Position numbers and translations under genes: made by a program. Source: Byssovorax sp. (GTDB lineage Bacteria; Myxococcota_A; Polyangia; Polyangiales; Polyangiaceae). Taken from it: 64,000 nucleotides of DNA. Shown in pieces: positions 3,100-49,342 of the stretch. The DNA lies in the NCBI GenBank assembly GCA_025362495.1, contig JANYGI010000121.1, positions 1 through 64,000 on the forward strand, in the 5' to 3' direction. Each line of letters opens with the position of its first letter. Positions within the stretch are counted from its first letter, which is position 1. Below the pieces are notes generated by a model. It searched no databases. It was not told where the DNA came from and saw nothing but the letters and a program-made list of their open reading frames with translations.

Positions 3100-3200
3100 C
3101 GCCGAAGGCGCGGCCTGCGGGCAGCGTGGCGACATCGTCGGGCGTCGTCGGGGTGGCGCGTACCGCCGGGCCGCGTGATCCGCTACCCTCGGCGCCGCTG

Positions 3201-4781
3201 ATGCTGAGACCCGGCGACGCGTTCGAGCGCTACACCATCGAGGCTCTGCTCGGTCAGGGCGGCATGGGCTGCGTTTACCGCGCGCACGATCCACGGCTCG
3301 GTCGCCGCGTCGCCGTGAAAGTGATCTCCGACGGCGCGACTCACGTCGACGCCAACGCGCGCCTGGTGCGCGAGGCGCGCTCGGCCGCGGCCCTCGATCA
3401 CCCCAACGCCATCGCGATCTTCGACGTCGGCGAGCGCGACGGCGCGCCGTACATCGTGATGGAGCTGGTCGAGGGACGGACGCTCCGGCGCACGCCCGGC
3501 GAGGCCGCGGCGTCGATCGCGGCGAGCGTCGCCCAGCTCGCCGACGTCGCGCGCGCGCTCGCGGGGGCGCACAAGCGCGGGCTGATTCATCGCGATATCA
3601 AGCCCGAAAACGTGATGGTCCGCGACGACGGCGTGGTGAAGGTCCTCGACTTCGGCATCGCGCGCCGCACCGGTGGGAGCGTCGATCCGAGCGGCCCGAC
3701 GCAGGCGCCGGCGGTGCCGACGCTGACGGTGGAGGGCATGAAGCTCGGGACACCGGTGTACATGGCGCCCGAGCAAATCCGCGGCGACGAGCTCGACGGT
3801 CGCACCGATCAGTTCGCGTGGGGCGTGCTCGCGTACGAGCTGCTCGCCGGTCGCCTCCCCTGGCGCGGCGCGAACGACGCGCTCGCCGTGATGGCGTCGA
3901 TCCTCGCCGACGCCGCGGCCCCGGGCCCGCTCGCGAGCGCCGGCGTGAGCCCCGAGATCGCGAGCGTGGTGCTGCGGACGCTGGAAAAGCGCCCCGAGGA
4001 TCGCTTCGCGTCGATGGACGATCTGCTGCGCGCGCTCGACGCCGCGGGTCGCGGTGAGCCGCTCGCGCCGCTGAAGAAAAATGTCGAGCCCGCGGGGAGC
4101 GCGACGCTGGCGCAGCAGTTCTCGACCGGCGAGGTGCGCGAGGTGCTCGGCAAGGCGATCGAGAACCAGGCGGCAAAACAAGGCTCGACGCGGCTCGGCT
4201 TCGACGAGCTGATCGCCGTGGCGGCCGAGGTCGGCGTCGACGTGGCGTCGCTGCGGGACGCCAGCCGCGCGCTGCGCGTGCGCGACGAGCAGCAGTCGAC
4301 GGCGACCGAGCTCGCGGCGAAGCGCGACGCGTGGCTCCGGCAAAAGCGGCTGCTTTTCCACCGTCACGCGGGCGTTTACGCGATCGTCAACGCCGCGCTC
4401 CTGGTGCTCGGCCTGGTGCTGCTGAGCTTCACGCCGTGGTGGATCTGGTTCTTGCCAGCGCTGGCGTGGGGCGTCGGCCTGGCCATCCACGGCCTGATGG
4501 CGCTGACGTCGAACGAGGCCGACTGGAAAGAGCACCACGAAAGGATGCAGGCCTGGGAAGAGGGTCGGCGGCGGCGCCACGAGGTCGCGCTGGCCCGCGC
4601 CGGCGAGCCTCGCGGTCGCGGCGGGCGACGCGAGGAGCGGCGTCGCGTCGCGGCCGCGCCCGAAGCCGAGAGGCTGCGCGTGGCGCCAGAGGCCGGCGGA
4701 AATCGCGCGGCAACCGGCGAGGACGACGACGACGAGGAGGCGCTCGCCGAGGCGCCCGAGGTGAAGCGCCGGAAGCGCTGA
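3201..4781 (+). CDS. Ser/Thr protein kinase with C-terminal 2TM domain
   Basis: 526 residues. Residues 1-275 are a Hanks-type kinase: glycine loop LLGQGGMGCVYRAHD, Lys40 in VAVKV, HRDIKPEN at 130-137, DFG at 150-152 and GTPVYMAPEQ, all intact, so active kinase is expected. After a helical linker (residues about 300-385) two close hydrophobic helices (about 388-435, TPWWIWFLPALAWG between them) followed by a charged tail match the small 2TM domain often found at the end of bacterial kinases. The tail is rich in Arg and ends in an acidic run (EDDDDEEA). The frame is open far upstream inside gnd; ATG 3201 was chosen because the kinase fold begins immediately after it. A TACCCT box lies 11 bases before the ATG. 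DUF350 and lipoprotein genes follow closely and may be co-transcribed. Confidence 0.93.
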   Translation: MLRPGDAFERYTIEALLGQGGMGCVYRAHDPRLGRRVAVKVISDGATHVDANARLVREARSAAALDHPNAIAIFDVGERDGAPYIVMELVEGRTLRRTPGEAAASIAASVAQLADVARALAGAHKRGLIHRDIKPENVMVRDDGVVKVLDFGIARRTGGSVDPSGPTQAPAVPTLTVEGMKLGTPVYMAPEQIRGDELDGRTDQFAWGVLAYELLAGRLPWRGANDALAVMASILADAAAPGPLASAGVSPEIASVVLRTLEKRPEDRFASMDDLLRALDAAGRGEPLAPLKKNVEPAGSATLAQQFSTGEVREVLGKAIENQAAKQGSTRLGFDELIAVAAEVGVDVASLRDASRALRVRDEQQSTATELAAKRDAWLRQKRLLFHRHAGVYAIVNAALLVLGLVLLSFTPWWIWFLPALAWGVGLAIHGLMALTSNEADWKEHHERMQAWEEGRRRRHEVALARAGEPRGRGGRREERRRVAAAPEAERLRVAPEAGGNRAATGEDDDDEEALAEAPEVKRRKR

Positions 4782-4806
4782 CGACTCGGCTACGCTGGGC
4801 GCGAAC

Positions 4807-5352
4807 ATGAACGCGACCCTCTTTCTCTTCGGTCTCGGCAAGGTCTTCTTCGGCATCATCGTCGGCGCTGCGGGCATCTTCAGCGCCTCGCGCCTGCTCG
4901 GGCGGATGATCCGCTGGGGCGACACCGAGGCCGAGACCAAGCGCGGGAACCTCGCCGCGGCGGTGCTCGAGGCCGCTGCGGTGATCTCGTTCGGCGTCCT
5001 CGTACAGCACGCCGTGACGGCCACGTTCACGGCGATGGATCTCGCGTACCGCGGCCAGGCGCCGCACCCGGCGATGATCGCGCGCTTCGCGCTCTATGGC
5101 CTCATCCATGTGGGCGTCTCGCTCACGGTGGGCGCGTTCTCGCTGGCGATCGGCGCCTGGATTTACGGCAAGCTCACCCGCGGCGTCGATGAGATGGCCG
5201 AGGTGCGCAAGGGCAACGTCGGGCCGGCGCTGGTGCTCGGCGCGGTGCTGGTGGTGATGGCGCTCGTGACGGCGCCGGGGCTGCAAATGGCGCTCGAAGG
5301 CCTGATCCCGCTGCCGACGCTCGACCGCGACGAGATGGTCGCGCCGTCGTGA
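4807..5352 (+). CDS. DUF350 family membrane protein
   Basis: 181 residues with about five hydrophobic helices in two similar halves. Each half carries the family's K/R-x-G-N motif before a helix: KRGNLAAAVLEAA near residue 40 and RKGNVGPALVLGA near 137. DUF350 (YjfL-type) proteins are inner-membrane proteins of unknown function, often next to lipoproteins or transglutaminase-like genes, as here. Its stop codon overlaps the GTG start of the next gene by 4 bases (GTGA), so the two are translationally coupled. A TACGCT box lies 10 bases before the ATG without a clear -35. Confidence 0.8.
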   Translation: MNATLFLFGLGKVFFGIIVGAAGIFSASRLLGRMIRWGDTEAETKRGNLAAAVLEAAAVISFGVLVQHAVTATFTAMDLAYRGQAPHPAMIARFALYGLIHVGVSLTVGAFSLAIGAWIYGKLTRGVDEMAEVRKGNVGPALVLGAVLVVMALVTAPGLQMALEGLIPLPTLDRDEMVAPS

Positions 5353-6242
5353 TCACGCGGCGTCTTCCCTGGTTTGTCGCCGCGGCCGCGCTGCTCGGCG
5401 CGTCGGGGTGCTGTCGCATCCTCGATGTGGAAGGCGACGATCCCGACCCCGAGCCCACCCCGACGACGAAGGCCGAGGAGCTCGGCACGGCGAGCTTCCC
5501 CGCAGGCGCGAAGGCGAACGCGGCGATCCACACCTGGAGCGCGAAGCGACTCAAGCCCTCGGTCTACCGGGTCGGCTACGCCCTCACCGCGTCGGAGAGC
5601 GCAGCTGTGGATGGCTCTCTCCACGACTACGCGACCCGCGTCGGCTACGCGGACGAGGGCGACGGCAAGTTCCGCTGGGTGCCTCCGACGGGGTGCAGCG
5701 GCGACATGCACTGTGTCTTCTCGGACCTCGTGGCGCGCGACGCGCCGGATCTCGCGCCGCTGGTGGATCGCTTTCGCGCCCGCAAGGCCGCGATCGGCCT
5801 GTCGACGATGGATCTCGCGGCGCTGGTCGTCACCTTCGTGCAGAACATCCCTTACGAGATCCCCAGGGAGGAGCCTTTTGGCGTGCTCCCGCCCGCGCTC
5901 GTGGTGGCCCGGCGCAAGGGCGATTGCGACTCGAAATCGCTGCTGGCGCACGTGATCCTGCACTCGCTCGGCTACGACACGATGATGCTCTCGTCGTCGG
6001 CGCACCACCACTCGATGCTGGGGATCGCGCTCCCGGCGTCGGGGACGAAGATCACCTACAGCGGACGCGATTACGCCTTCACCGAGATGACGGCGCGCGG
6101 CTCGCCGATTGGCCACATCAACGCCGATCTGCTGCGGCCGAACGACTGGAAGCCGGTGCCGTTTCGCTACCCGGACGCCGCGGCTCCGCCGGTGAAAGCG
6201 ACACCGACGGCGCCCACGCCGAAGAGGTCCCCGGGGCGCTGA
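5349..6242 (+). CDS. Transglutaminase-like lipoprotein
   Basis: 297 residues from GTG 5349, overlapping the DUF350 stop. The N-terminus is a lipoprotein signal (hydrophobic run then LLGASGC). A Pro/Thr linker follows, then a domain with GDCDSKSLLAHVILHSLGYD near residue 197, the Cys-containing helix of transglutaminase/protease folds, and HHHSMLGIAL about 25 residues on, giving a plausible Cys-His pair; the acid residue may be in the FTEMT segment. A Pro/Thr-rich tail ends the protein. Likely periplasmic, anchored to a membrane; bacterial relatives act as peptidases or crosslinkers, but no substrate can be named. The coupling to DUF350 suggests they work together at the membrane. Confidence 0.7.
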   Translation: MITRRLPWFVAAAALLGASGCCRILDVEGDDPDPEPTPTTKAEELGTASFPAGAKANAAIHTWSAKRLKPSVYRVGYALTASESAAVDGSLHDYATRVGYADEGDGKFRWVPPTGCSGDMHCVFSDLVARDAPDLAPLVDRFRARKAAIGLSTMDLAALVVTFVQNIPYEIPREEPFGVLPPALVVARRKGDCDSKSLLAHVILHSLGYDTMMLSSSAHHHSMLGIALPASGTKITYSGRDYAFTEMTARGSPIGHINADLLRPNDWKPVPFRYPDAAAPPVKATPTAPTPKRSPGR

Positions 6243-6429
6243 ACGTATCCTGTCCTGGGTGGCGGAGCACGGTTCCGTGCGGCGTGGCCTCGGAACGAGC
6301 GAGGTCCCTCGCGCCAATGATGTTATGACCGACTTCTCGTGAAGTGGACCCGGATCAGGAGCTTCGCCCCTCCCCCATTGCGCGCCGTGGTGGGACGCGC
6401 GCGCCGGGCCGAGCCCGACGGAGGCCCGC

Positions 6430-8028
6430 GTGGCCAGTGACCGCGGCCGCTGGGACGACGTCTGCCACGATCTGCGGACGCCGCTCTCAATCATCCTCGG
6501 CTACAGCGAGATGCTGCTCGAGGACGTCGAGAATCTGCCGGCGTGGAAGGCGCGCGCTCTCGATGTGCAGCGCGTCCGCGAGACCGGCCACCGGCTCCTG
6601 CGCATCCTCGACGACGCGATGGCAGCGAGCCGCGCCGAGGCCGTGGCCGAGGGCTTTCCCGTGCTCTCCGCGCGGCTTCACCGCGCTCTGCGCGCCCCGC
6701 TCGACGAGGCGCGCGGCGCGATCGACCGCGTGGTCGACGACACGCGAGGCACCGCGGAGAGCGACGCCATCCTCGTCGATCTCGAGCGGATCCGCACGGC
6801 CGGTCGCCGCTTCGACGCCCTGCTCGAAGAGCTCGCGCCGCCGCCGACCGTCGAGGCGGTCGCGCTCCGTGACGCCCCGCTGCCGCGGCCCATATCGAGG
6901 CCTTCCTGGCTGCCTCCGCCGCCCGGGATGCCTCGCAACGAGCCACGCGAGAGCGTCCCCGCGCCGGGCTCGATCCGCGCCCTGACTGGCAAGCTGCTCG
7001 TCGTCGACGACAACGAGAGCAACCGCGCGGTGCTCTCGCAGCGCCTCTCGCGGCAAGGACACACGGTATCGGTGGCGGCCGGCGGCCTCGAGGCGCTCGC
7101 GCTGCTCGGCCGCGAGCGCTTCGATCTGGTGCTGCTCGACGTGATGATGCCCGACATGGATGGGTATCAAGTCCTGGAACGGATGAAGTCCGATCAGGTG
7201 CTCCGGCACCTCCCCGTGGTGATGATCTCGGCGCGCGGCGACCTCGAAGGCATGGTGCGCTGTCTCGAGCTCGGAGCCGAGGACTACCTCGCCAAGCCCT
7301 TCAATCCAGTGCTCCTCCGCGCGCGCATCGGCGCCTCGCTCGCCCAGAAGCAGCAGCGCGATCGCGAGCGCTTCTACATCGAGCGCCTCCGCCTGGCCCA
7401 GGAGCAGTCGGAGTCTCTGCTGCTCAACGTGCTCCCCAAGGCCATCGCCGATCGCCTCAAGCGCGGCGAGAGCGCCATCGCCGACTACTTCGAGGCCGTC
7501 ACGGTGCTGTTCGCCGATCTCGTCGGCTTCACGGCGTACGCGGCCCGCCTCGCGCCGGCCACCGTGGTCGAGCGGCTCAACGAGATCTTCACCGCCTTCG
7601 ACCGCCTGGCCGAGCGCCACGGGGTCGAGAAGATCAAGACCATCGGCGACGCGTACCTGGCCGTCGGCGGCCTGCCCGTGCCGCGCCCCGATCACGCCGC
7701 CGCCATCGCCGAGCTGGCGATGGACATGCAGAAAGAGGTCGAGATCTTCAACCGGCGCACCGGCGAGAACATCGTGATCCGCACCGGGATCCACAGCGGC
7801 CCCGTCGTCGCCGGGATCGTGGGCACCACCAAGTTCAGCTACGATCTCTGGGGCGACACCGTCAACACCGCGAGCCGGATGGAGTCTCACGGCGTGCCCG
7901 GAGCCATCCAGATCTCCGAGGCGACGCGCCGCCTGCTCGACGGCAAGTACGTGATCCAGTCGCGCGGCACCATCGACGTGAAGGGCAAAGGCCCGATGGA
8001 GACGTCGCTGCTGCTCGGTCGCAGATAG
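6430..8028 (+). CDS. DHp-DHp-REC-adenylyl cyclase signalling protein
   Basis: 532 residues from GTG 6430, with GGAGG eight bases upstream. Residues 10-70 form a histidine-kinase dimerisation helix with the H box CHDLRTPLS (His13); residues 80-135 look like a second, diverged copy (LHRALRAPLDEA, His84). There is no ATPase domain. Residues 187-305 are a receiver domain with Asp193/194, phospho-acceptor Asp237 and Lys289. Residues 355-530 are a class III cyclase: metal-binding Asp362 and Asp407, Lys403 and Asp472 selecting adenine, Asn479 and Arg483 for catalysis. The product is therefore expected to be cyclic AMP, controlled by phosphorylation of the receiver by a separate kinase. The protein is soluble, with no membrane segment. 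Confidence 0.92.
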   Translation: MASDRGRWDDVCHDLRTPLSIILGYSEMLLEDVENLPAWKARALDVQRVRETGHRLLRILDDAMAASRAEAVAEGFPVLSARLHRALRAPLDEARGAIDRVVDDTRGTAESDAILVDLERIRTAGRRFDALLEELAPPPTVEAVALRDAPLPRPISRPSWLPPPPGMPRNEPRESVPAPGSIRALTGKLLVVDDNESNRAVLSQRLSRQGHTVSVAAGGLEALALLGRERFDLVLLDVMMPDMDGYQVLERMKSDQVLRHLPVVMISARGDLEGMVRCLELGAEDYLAKPFNPVLLRARIGASLAQKQQRDRERFYIERLRLAQEQSESLLLNVLPKAIADRLKRGESAIADYFEAVTVLFADLVGFTAYAARLAPATVVERLNEIFTAFDRLAERHGVEKIKTIGDAYLAVGGLPVPRPDHAAAIAELAMDMQKEVEIFNRRTGENIVIRTGIHSGPVVAGIVGTTKFSYDLWGDTVNTASRMESHGVPGAIQISEATRRLLDGKYVIQSRGTIDVKGKGPMETSLLLGRR

Positions 8029-46513: not shown

Positions 46514-46975
46514 GCGTTTCCTTCAATCCTCGCGCCACGGCGCGGGCGACGGTCGGGGTGCCTGGGGCCATCAACGGCGTACCAGTGCGGATCTTGAGCG
46601 GCCTCACCGCCTTCAGGCGAGCAAGTCAAAGCCTGGCCAGGGCCTTTGCCCGGGCCGCCGGCCGCTCATCGGCGCAACGGAGACAACGAATCTCCGCGAG
46701 CTCGGCTCGCGAAAATCAGCGGGTGAACGCGAGCGTCCACGCTTCACGAATCGCATGCTCGCGCTTCACGCGCAACCATAAACTCGACCAATCGACGATT
46801 GGATCACGTGGGGTCATGAGCCCGTGCAAACGAGGATGCCTCCACGCTGCTTCGGCGCGGTTGGGAGGCCTCATCGATCGACGTGAGGTGCTGTCTCCAG
46901 CCCTCGATTTCCGCCTCGCGCTCAAGCCGGCGGCGCGGAGGCCGTAGACGAGGTGGTCCGGTCGAGGAGCTTGGT
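46514..46975. other. Intergenic region between divergent lipoprotein and HNOBA kinase genes
   Basis: About 460 bases with no supported gene. It contains a perfect inverted repeat CCAATC-GAC-GATTGG at 46788-46802 and two CGCTTCACG repeats near 46740 and 46763, which could be regulator-binding sites for either divergent gene. No -10/-35 pair stands out. Confidence 0.4.
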
Positions 46976-49342
46976 GTGCCTGTTTCGCCTGCGATCCTGC
47001 CGTTGCCGCCCGATATGCTCGCGTCGGCCTTCCCGTTTCACGTGGCCTTCGACGCGAATGGCAAGGTCGTTCAGGTGGGCGCGGGGCTCGCGCGGATCTG
47101 TCCTTCGCTGGTGCGCGGCGCCGACGTCGACGCCTGCCTCGCGCTGCAACGGTCGGCGATCTCGCTGCGATCCGCGGCGATCACGGCCTACACGGGGACG
47201 TCGATCCTGCTCGAGGTGCGCGGCAGCAGCGTGGTTCTCAAGGGGCAGATCCTGGAGGGCGAGGCGACGCGGATCTTCCTCGGATCGCCCTGGATCACCG
47301 AGCTCGGCGCGATGGCGCGGCTCGGCCTCACCGCCGACGATTTCCCGGCGCACACCGGGGCGCTCGACTACCTCCGCTTGATGTCGGGCCAGGGCGCAGC
47401 CGTCACCGATCTCCGCCGCACCAATGACAAGCTCGAGAAGAAGCGCGACGAGAACGCGGCGCTCGTGGCGGCCATCCCCGATCTGATCGTGCAGATCGGC
47501 GAGTCGGGGAAGATCGTCGGCTTCAAGGCCGCGAAGGACGTGCACCTCCGGCGCCCGCTCCACGAGTGCCTCGGGCGCGGCCTCGGCGAGCTCTTCCCCG
47601 ACGAGGTGGCGCGCGAGCTCGAGCGCCTCGCGTCCGAGGCGACGCGCTCGCAGCAGACGCAGACCCTCGAGTACCGCCTCGACGACGAGCGCGGGGCGCG
47701 CGATTTCGAGGCGCGCGTCGTCGCCAGCGGGCGGCAGGGCAGCCTGCTGATCTTCCGCGACATCGGCGAGAGAAAACGCCTGGAGCGAGAGCTGGTGATC
47801 GCGCGCGAAGACGCCCTCCGCGCCTCGCGCGCCAAGAGCGAGTACCTGGCGATGATGAGCCACGAGATCCGCACGCCGATGAACGGCGTGATCGGGATGA
47901 CGGGCTTGCTCCTCGACACCGCGCTCTCCGCCGAGCAGCGCGAGTACGCGGAGGCGGTGCGCACCTCGGGCGAGGCGCTGCTCCACCTCATCGACGACAT
48001 CCTCGATCTGTCGAAGATCGAAGCCGGCCGCCTCGAGCTGGAGAACGCGCCGTTCGACGTGCGGCGGCAGCTCGGCGAGGTCGTGAGCCTGCTGGCGCCG
48101 CGCGCCAGGGCGAAGGGGATCGCGCTCGGCTTGCGCGTCGAGGACGACGTGCCCGCGCGGCTGCTCGGCGACGCGCTGCGCCTCCGTCAGATCGTCACCA
48201 ACCTCGTCGGCAACGCGGTGAAGTTCACCGACGCGGGCCACGTCAGCGTCACCGCGTCGGTGCTGAGCGTGGCCGACGACGAGCGCGTCCTCCGCTTCGA
48301 GGTCGAGGACACGGGCGTCGGGATCTCCGCTGTCGCCGCGCCGAAGCTCTTTCAGCCCTTCAGCCAGGCCGACGACGCGACGACGCGCCGCCACGGCGGC
48401 ACGGGGCTCGGCCTCTCGATCACGCGGCGCCTCGTCGAGCGCATGGGCGGCGTGGTGGACTTCGAGAGCACGCCCGGGAAGGGCAGCCGCTTCTGGTTCA
48501 CGGCGCGCCTCGGCGTCGCGACGGTGGCGCCCGAAGAGGCCGCCCCGCCCAGCGCACCGCCGGTATCGAGCTGCGCCGTGCGGAGGCGATCGACGCGGGT
48601 GCTGGTCGTCGACGACAACCCGATAAACCTCGCCCTCGCCGTGCGGCTGCTGGAGAAGCGCGGCCTGACTCCCGATGTGGCCAGCGACGGTCCCGCGGCG
48701 ATCGCGGCCTTCGAGGAGAAGCACCACGAGCTGATCTTCATGGACTGCCAGATGCCCGGGATGGATGGATTGGAGACCACGGCGCGCCTCCGCGGCATCC
48801 TGGCCGCGCCTCCGCCGATCATCGTGGCGATGACCGCCGGCGCCATGTCCGGAGATCGCGAGAGGTGCCTGGCCGCGGGGATGGATGGATATCTGAGCAA
48901 GCCAGTCCGCACAGAGGAGCTCGACCGGATCCTCACGCGCGTGGCGCAGCGGGTGACGCCGCTCCGCGGTCGGCCGCTCACGCCCGTCGAGGCGAGCTTC
49001 GACGCGAGCCACCTGCTCCGCGTGAGCGAGGGAGACGTGGAGTGCGCCCACGCGCTCATCGATCTCTTCCTGCGCGACGGTCCGATGCTGCTCGCGCGGG
49101 TGCACGAGGCGATGGCGCTCGAGGACGCGTCCGCGCTCTCGTTCGCGGCCCACAAGCTCCGGGGCGCGATCCAGAGCTTCACGCTCGGCGCGCCGGCGGT
49201 GACGGCCGCGACGATCGAAGCGGTCGCGAAGACCGCCGCGTTCGGCGGGACGACCGAGCTCCAGCGAGCGATGGATACGCAGATGGCGACGCTGACGCGG
49301 CAGCTCGCGTCGTTCCAGCGCGACACGGCCCGATCGGCGTGA
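46976..49342 (+). CDS. HNOBA-PAS hybrid histidine kinase with receiver and HPt
   Basis: 788 residues from GTG 46976, preceded by GAGGAG; a frame open to 46883 has no sensible start. Residues 18-155 match the haem-NO-binding-associated (HNOBA) domain: FPFHVAFDANGKVVQVG, SVVLKGQILEGEATRIFLGS, PWITELGAMARLGLTADDFP. A short coiled coil (DLRRTNDKLEKKRDEN) and a PAS domain (165-265) follow, then HisKA with His296 (SHEIRTPMNG), the ATPase domain (NLVGNAVKFT, DTGVGIS, GGTGLGLS), a receiver (VLVVDDNPIN, FMDCQMPGMDG) and a C-terminal HPt (AAHKLRGAIQSF). HNOBA domains normally pair with H-NOX, but no H-NOX gene is in the window. No membrane helix, so cytoplasmic. Confidence 0.9.
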   Translation: MPVSPAILPLPPDMLASAFPFHVAFDANGKVVQVGAGLARICPSLVRGADVDACLALQRSAISLRSAAITAYTGTSILLEVRGSSVVLKGQILEGEATRIFLGSPWITELGAMARLGLTADDFPAHTGALDYLRLMSGQGAAVTDLRRTNDKLEKKRDENAALVAAIPDLIVQIGESGKIVGFKAAKDVHLRRPLHECLGRGLGELFPDEVARELERLASEATRSQQTQTLEYRLDDERGARDFEARVVASGRQGSLLIFRDIGERKRLERELVIAREDALRASRAKSEYLAMMSHEIRTPMNGVIGMTGLLLDTALSAEQREYAEAVRTSGEALLHLIDDILDLSKIEAGRLELENAPFDVRRQLGEVVSLLAPRARAKGIALGLRVEDDVPARLLGDALRLRQIVTNLVGNAVKFTDAGHVSVTASVLSVADDERVLRFEVEDTGVGISAVAAPKLFQPFSQADDATTRRHGGTGLGLSITRRLVERMGGVVDFESTPGKGSRFWFTARLGVATVAPEEAAPPSAPPVSSCAVRRRSTRVLVVDDNPINLALAVRLLEKRGLTPDVASDGPAAIAAFEEKHHELIFMDCQMPGMDGLETTARLRGILAAPPPIIVAMTAGAMSGDRERCLAAGMDGYLSKPVRTEELDRILTRVAQRVTPLRGRPLTPVEASFDASHLLRVSEGDVECAHALIDLFLRDGPMLLARVHEAMALEDASALSFAAHKLRGAIQSFTLGAPAVTAATIEAVAKTAAFGGTTELQRAMDTQMATLTRQLASFQRDTARSA

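Follow-up and report, generated by a model that had tools for sequence, protein, structure and literature searches.

Histidine phosphotransferases have been described either as HPt proteins or as (dimeric) pseudo-histidine kinases (PMC9981736). HPt domains (PF01627) are monomeric four-helix bundles carrying one phospho-histidine. Spo0B, the DHp phosphotransferase of the Bacillus relay KinA-Spo0F-Spo0B-Spo0A, is a homodimeric four-helix bundle with a carrier histidine and a degenerate CA-like domain, and is a protein separate from the receivers. ChpT of Caulobacter has a histidine-bearing DHp bundle and cannot use ATP (PMC3433190); it serves as a phosphotransferase fed by a hybrid kinase (PMC3433190, PMC9981736). 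ChpT is a homodimer, so that two histidines are present, with a Bergerat-fold domain, and its receiver targets are other proteins. Proteins with a HisKA domain and no HATPase domain make up 3.66% of the HisKA proteins in SMART (PMC3591291), and 'incomplete histidine kinases' are known in archaea (PMC5847659). These proteins and the split kinases CheA3/CheA4 have a phospho-histidine domain without a catalytic ATP-binding (CA) domain; the roles proposed for them are as substrates of a CA domain in a partner protein or as phosphatases. In receiver-linked class III cyclases of the CyaC type the receiver precedes the cyclase, without a CA-less tandem DHp.

The protein considered here is encoded in a stretch of 64,000 nt of Byssovorax sp. 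(GCA_025362495.1, contig JANYGI010000121.1, positions 1 to 64,000 of the forward strand), referred to below as the window. It has a DHp-type carrier histidine like Spo0B and ChpT and a predicted four-helix bundle like Spo0B, but the two DHp copies are in tandem in one chain, the degenerate CA-like second domain of both systems is absent, and the tandem is fused to a receiver (REC) and a cyclase. It is DHp-derived, as is ChpT, but ChpT is a two-histidine homodimer that stands apart from its targets. By prediction it resembles HPt domains in being a monomeric bundle with one phospho-histidine; unlike them, it gives no Hpt profile match, descends from a duplicated DHp and has an H-box of the HisKA type. 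None of the split or incomplete kinases has been described as a tandem DHp-REC-cyclase, and the closest cyanobacterial match (L051) is a REC-cyclase with no DHp. No description of a tandem half-degenerate DHp without a CA domain, of the three-gene cassette reported below, or of a relay of this kind with a cyclase as its output was found in the open-access papers searched.

Domain structure of the cyclase protein

The gene is a genuine open reading frame with a GTG start and an upstream ggagg (Table 1). The Pfam scan returned HisKA at residues 10-71 (E 9e-10), Response_reg at 190-300 (E 7e-30) and Guanylate_cyc at 353-528 (E 1e-60). The DHp region is separated from the receiver by a linker of 42 residues, at the place of the CA domain in hybrid kinases. 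No match to HATPase_c was found in the protein with Pfam and none to a CA domain with a CA profile built for this analysis, which gave at most 0.2 bits across 30 family members; the Hpt profile (PF01627) was absent from the Pfam scan of the protein at E up to 10. As the linker is predicted to be disordered, no ATPase is hidden there. Measured by the features of a HisKA histidine kinase, the DHp with its phospho-histidine position is present and the catalytic ATP-binding domain is absent. The preliminary description of this DNA had reported a receiver and a complete adenylyl cyclase with nothing resembling HATPase_c, which Pfam, the CA profile and inspection of the residues bear out; a cryptic ATPase at residues 140-185, which it had named beforehand as contrary evidence, was found neither by Pfam nor by the CA profile nor in the disordered linker.

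Table 1. Positions in the window of the cyclase gene and its parts
Feature	Position	Strand	Remarks
Tandem DHp - REC - class III adenylyl cyclase gene	6430..8028	+	532 aa, GTG start; colinear relatives L052, L053 at 42-43% identity
Ribosome-binding-like ggagg	6420..6424	+	5 bases upstream of GTG, direct reading
DHp1 (residues 4-70), HisKA	6439..6639	+	Pfam HisKA; helices 4-33, 37-74 in model of residues 1-140
H13, predicted phospho-His, motif HDLRTPL	6466..6468	+	Aligned H-box column
DHp2 (residues 76-133), degenerate copy	6655..6828	+	DHp profile matches; helices 76-105, 109-133 in model
R85 at phospho-His position of DHp2	6682..6684	+	Aligned column
Disordered proline-rich linker (141-182)	6850..6975	+	pLDDT <50; no CA profile match
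Receiver domain (188-305)	6991..7344	+	Pfam and conserved residues
D237, predicted phospho-Asp of receiver	7138..7140	+	Conserved residue
Long helix 293-334 bridging receiver and cyclase	7306..7431	+	Secondary structure of predicted model
Class III adenylyl cyclase (350-532)	7477..8025	+	Pfam, catalytic residues, fold match

The second DHp copy is not detected by Pfam in the window protein. When residues 76-140 were scored alone against a generic DHp profile they gave 22.5 bits, while the best of 1000 shuffles reached 6.1. An alignment of 18 histidine-less DHp2 copies matched the same profile with 98% probability and a score of 62.8, compared to 9.4 ± 2.0 for column-shuffled alignments, and the relative L053 is openly double, with two stretches that match Pfam HisKA. 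The MAFFT alignment A5 was left out of the analysis because it misplaced the DHp copies. DHp2 is therefore a diverged DHp by ancestry that has lost its histidine, and the duplicated DHp-like domain of the preliminary description is upheld, including the DHp similarity of residues 80-135 in profile searches. That description had placed phospho-histidines in two H-boxes, of which H13 is in register; H84 lies one residue off, adjoining R85, which occupies the phospho-histidine column when the protein is aligned with its relatives. This position is Arg in 10 of the 12 other readable Polyangia copies and L, D, Q, R or I in Verrucomicrobiota.

The AlphaFold2 model of the full protein, obtained from 24 sequences, had a mean pLDDT of 88 and contained four long helices at residues 2-34, 37-70, 76-105 and 109-133. 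Residues 1-140 alone gave a pLDDT of 90 and a pTM of 0.84, so that the two hairpins are confidently placed on each other. The DHp1 and DHp2 hairpins are predicted to form one single-chain four-helix bundle, an AlphaFold run on one chain being unable to separate an intramolecular bundle from a swapped dimer. The dimer scaffold suggested earlier for the DHp array is refined by this model, in which the tandem would close its own bundle. A structure search with the tandem bundle was unspecific and returned generic four-helix bundles, the best being 1yo7 (single-chain ROP, Z 14.8), and also PDK4 (Z 10.7). No bacterial histidine kinase or HPt was among the matches listed for the bundle, which says little.

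The receiver is complete, with the acidic pair D193/D194, the phospho-aspartate D237, S267 and K289, and qualifies as a response regulator. D193, D194, D237 and K289 are conserved in 25/25 members and the position of S267 is Ser or Thr in all 25. The cyclase has both metal-binding aspartates (D363, D407), the adenine residues K403/D472 and the transition-state residues N479/R483, and its predicted fold matches the bacterial adenylyl cyclase 5o5k (Z 28.3) and CyaC (1wc1, Z 26.4). Judged by these residues, the active sites of both domains are intact. The cyclase at L053:9366-11051, which is located beside a complete cassette, carries D363N, N479Q and R483L (window numbering), and is probably a pseudo-cyclase retained under the same relay.

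Distribution and the surviving histidine

Among named genomes, a Pseudolabrys MAG supplied one of the two best full-length relatives (L052) and a verrucomicrobial MAG the other (L053); the two are colinear with the window protein and have no CA domain. When 379 genomes of the phylum of the window (Myxococcota) and 318 of its class were searched, the architecture was present in 11 genomes of the Polyangia family f16, in G591, whose copy carries an in-frame TAG, in G217, whose copy is interrupted by the contig end, and in three genomes of family f50, where the first hairpin is strongly diverged. No other copy was seen in the window's own order in these searches. The architecture was also found in 8 of 289 genomes of the verrucomicrobial phylum and 5 of 240 of the alphaproteobacterial class. 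The CA-less tandem DHp-REC-cyclase thus occurs in Myxococcota, Verrucomicrobiota and Alphaproteobacteria, commonly with intact active sites at about 42-63% identity, and in Armatimonadota the same front end is joined to other outputs. The proposal that a CA-less DHp array leads through a receiver to a cyclase is in agreement with this recurrence across phyla. In a tree of REC-cyclases the nearest rows to the window protein were those of Polyangia family f16, a placement that is not firm.

The phospho-histidine positions were read against the alignment. Exactly one histidine was present in 23 of 25 complete cyclase tandems and both in the other two, which belong to sister species (L164, L209); none of the 25 lacked both, and the carrier histidine is kept in every cyclase member. 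The surviving histidine is in DHp1 in Polyangia and Verrucomicrobiota and in DHp2 in Alphaproteobacteria, where DHp1 has Gln in its place. If the duplication is shared, histidine must have been lost separately at least twice, since opposite copies are affected. The counts of histidine loss are given without a probability because copies related by descent do not represent independent events.

A single histidine is not an absolute rule: L164 and L209 depart from it, as do four proteins that are not cyclases, two with both histidines (L290, L295) and two with neither (L291, L300). The last two indicate that the tandem is not always a phosphocarrier. L290, L291, L295, L300 and L301 are Armatimonadota proteins of the form DHp-DHp-REC-DHp-CA, in which the tandem receiver stands ahead of a full kinase core.

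In autokinases the residue that follows the phospho-histidine is acidic. Of 26 members, 8 have Ser, Thr, Ala or Arg there instead, a substitution that would fit a transfer-only role of the domain.

Gene neighbourhoods and linked kinases

A hybrid kinase of the form DHp-CA-REC-REC adjoins the gene in L052 and L053, in seven more of the sampled Verrucomicrobiota and in three more Alphaproteobacteria, and as a rule these cassettes also contain a single-domain receiver. The sensors of the cassette kinases vary and include HAMP, CHASE8, GAF, PAS, CoA-binding and V4R domains. In Armatimonadota the same hybrid kinase and a lone receiver are followed by DHp or tandem-DHp receivers whose outputs are not cyclases, namely a SpoIIE-type phosphatase, a second kinase core, a HisKA_3 kinase and a DUF1003 membrane protein. 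The copy in G1034 and a single-DHp cyclase of Armatimonadota (G1230) are unlinked to a kinase cassette. The linked parts have the order of the Bacillus relay, in which kinase, lone receiver, DHp phosphotransferase and receiver-output follow one another. In most of the verrucomicrobial and alphaproteobacterial members the gene layout is the one to be expected under the earlier suggestion that the tandem could receive phosphate from another kinase.

No kinase or lone receiver was found within about 8 kb of the window copy, of any f16 copy or of the f50 copies. Close full-length relatives of the cassette kinase are present elsewhere in the f16 genomes. A compact hybrid-kinase orthologue was not found in the genome of the window, where the best matches were multi-receiver kinases of 1504 and 1503 aa. 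Some 39 kb away from the cyclase gene, at 46883-49342 (+), the window itself encodes a complete relay kinase that may be unrelated to it. This is a hybrid kinase in which an HNOBA match is accompanied by PAS, HisKA, HATPase, REC and HPt domains.

The genes around the window copy include at 3183-6242 (+) a Ser/Thr kinase with a 2TM domain after the kinase domain, followed by a DUF350 gene and a lipoprotein-like ORF without a Pfam match. The preliminary description had placed the cyclase in a five-gene run and seen in its Ser/Thr kinase and STAS-like neighbours a possible new cAMP module. The five genes are all co-oriented, but their order is not conserved in relatives: a search of 23 neighbourhoods around related genes found neither the STAS-like gene nor this gene order, and the Ser/Thr kinase gave distant kinase-domain matches only. 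Close STAS-like homologues occur in the family without the cyclase (G004, G164). None of the neighbours (Ser/Thr kinase, DUF350, lipoprotein, STAS-like) accompanies the cyclase gene from genome to genome, and a conserved module of this composition was rejected.

Two other loci vary the cassette. At L297:1372-2961 (+) a DHp-REC is joined to a SpoIIE-type phosphatase behind the same type of hybrid kinase and lone receiver. Directly upstream of the G591 copy, the gene at L213:9909-11060 (-) encodes a haem-NO-binding (HNOB) domain and a receiver, with a stub between them that looks like the beginning of a CA domain, and seems to be a cassette that lost most of its kinase.

Proposed phosphorelay and alternative explanations

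The reading preferred here, with a probability of roughly 0.55, is that a multi-step phosphorelay for cAMP synthesis ends in this protein, whose tandem DHp would act as a built-in, HPt-like phosphotransferase for the receiver fused to it. A separate hybrid kinase (DHp-CA-REC-REC) would autophosphorylate and hand the phosphate to its own or a single-domain receiver, and this phosphorylated donor would pass it to H13 of the tandem, from which it would move to D237 of the adjoining receiver. The phosphorylated receiver may then rearrange helix 293-334, thereby setting the activity of the cyclase dimer. The tandem would thus be a phosphotransferase and not a kinase, with DHp1 carrying the histidine and DHp2 as its structural half, and the parts of the linked cassettes would amount to a four-step relay from kinase histidine to receiver aspartate, DHp histidine and receiver aspartate, and then to the output. 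We infer all phosphotransfer steps and their direction, together with an unlinked donor kinase in the genome of the window, the movement of phosphate being read from gene layout and from the precedent of Spo0B and ChpT (PMC3433190, PMC9981736).

A wider proposal, for which the chances appear to be a little under even, is that the duplicated DHp hairpin represents a third structural class of histidine phosphotransferase. This would be a single-chain, single-histidine four-helix bundle, in effect an HPt-like domain that arose anew from the dimerisation domain of a kinase. Opposite copies would have lost their histidine according to lineage, and the domain would serve interchangeable outputs, cAMP synthesis among them, as a last relay step carried in the same protein. 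If true, a duplicated DHp with one surviving histidine would be a further solution to histidine phosphotransfer and would show a route from a dimeric kinase domain to a monomeric HPt-like bundle. The cassettes, with their variable sensor kinase, lone receiver and tandem DHp-REC with variable output, would add a Spo0-like phosphorelay that ends in cAMP, in phyla where cAMP signalling has been little studied. They also offer a concrete candidate function for some of the HATPase-less HisKA proteins, which are often annotated as kinases.

The strongest rival, although unlikely, is that the receiver is phosphorylated directly by a kinase or a lone receiver, and that the DHp pair holds the partners and dephosphorylates D237 through the HDxxT motif of HisKA domains. 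It ranks first because the window protein keeps this motif and because two related non-cyclase proteins have neither histidine: the HDLRT of the window fits the HE/DxxN/T motif (PMC3591291), and HisKA proteins without HATPase have been proposed as phosphatases (PMC5847659). However, the acidic residue of the motif is missing in the 8 of 26 members noted above, while the histidine is kept in every cyclase member. A further alternative is a split histidine kinase, in which H13 would be phosphorylated directly with ATP, as CheA4 does for CheA3, either by a partner made up of CA alone or by the CA domain that belongs to a different kinase. Part of the 3.66% of HisKA proteins without HATPase has been proposed to work in this way (PMC3591291), but the kinase linked to the gene in relatives is no CA-only protein: it is complete, has a DHp and receivers of its own and is accompanied by a lone receiver. 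Many members also have a non-acidic residue after the histidine, and this explanation is improbable.

Slighter still is the chance that the DHp pair has no task beyond positioning or multimerising the protein, its histidine being a leftover. One DHp has nearly always been free to lose its histidine and L291 and L300 lost both, but in several phyla not one of the 25 complete cyclase tandems lacks both. Decay of an ordinary hybrid-kinase adenylyl cyclase through recent loss of the CA domain, which the overall layout of the protein might suggest, is contradicted by the relatives in several phyla with the same CA-less tandem and intact active sites and leaves the second DHp unexplained, and is very improbable.

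The tandem can also be repeated within one protein. The gene at L208:550-3012 (+) encodes two successive pairs, arranged as DHp-DHp-linker-DHp-DHp and followed by REC and cyclase.
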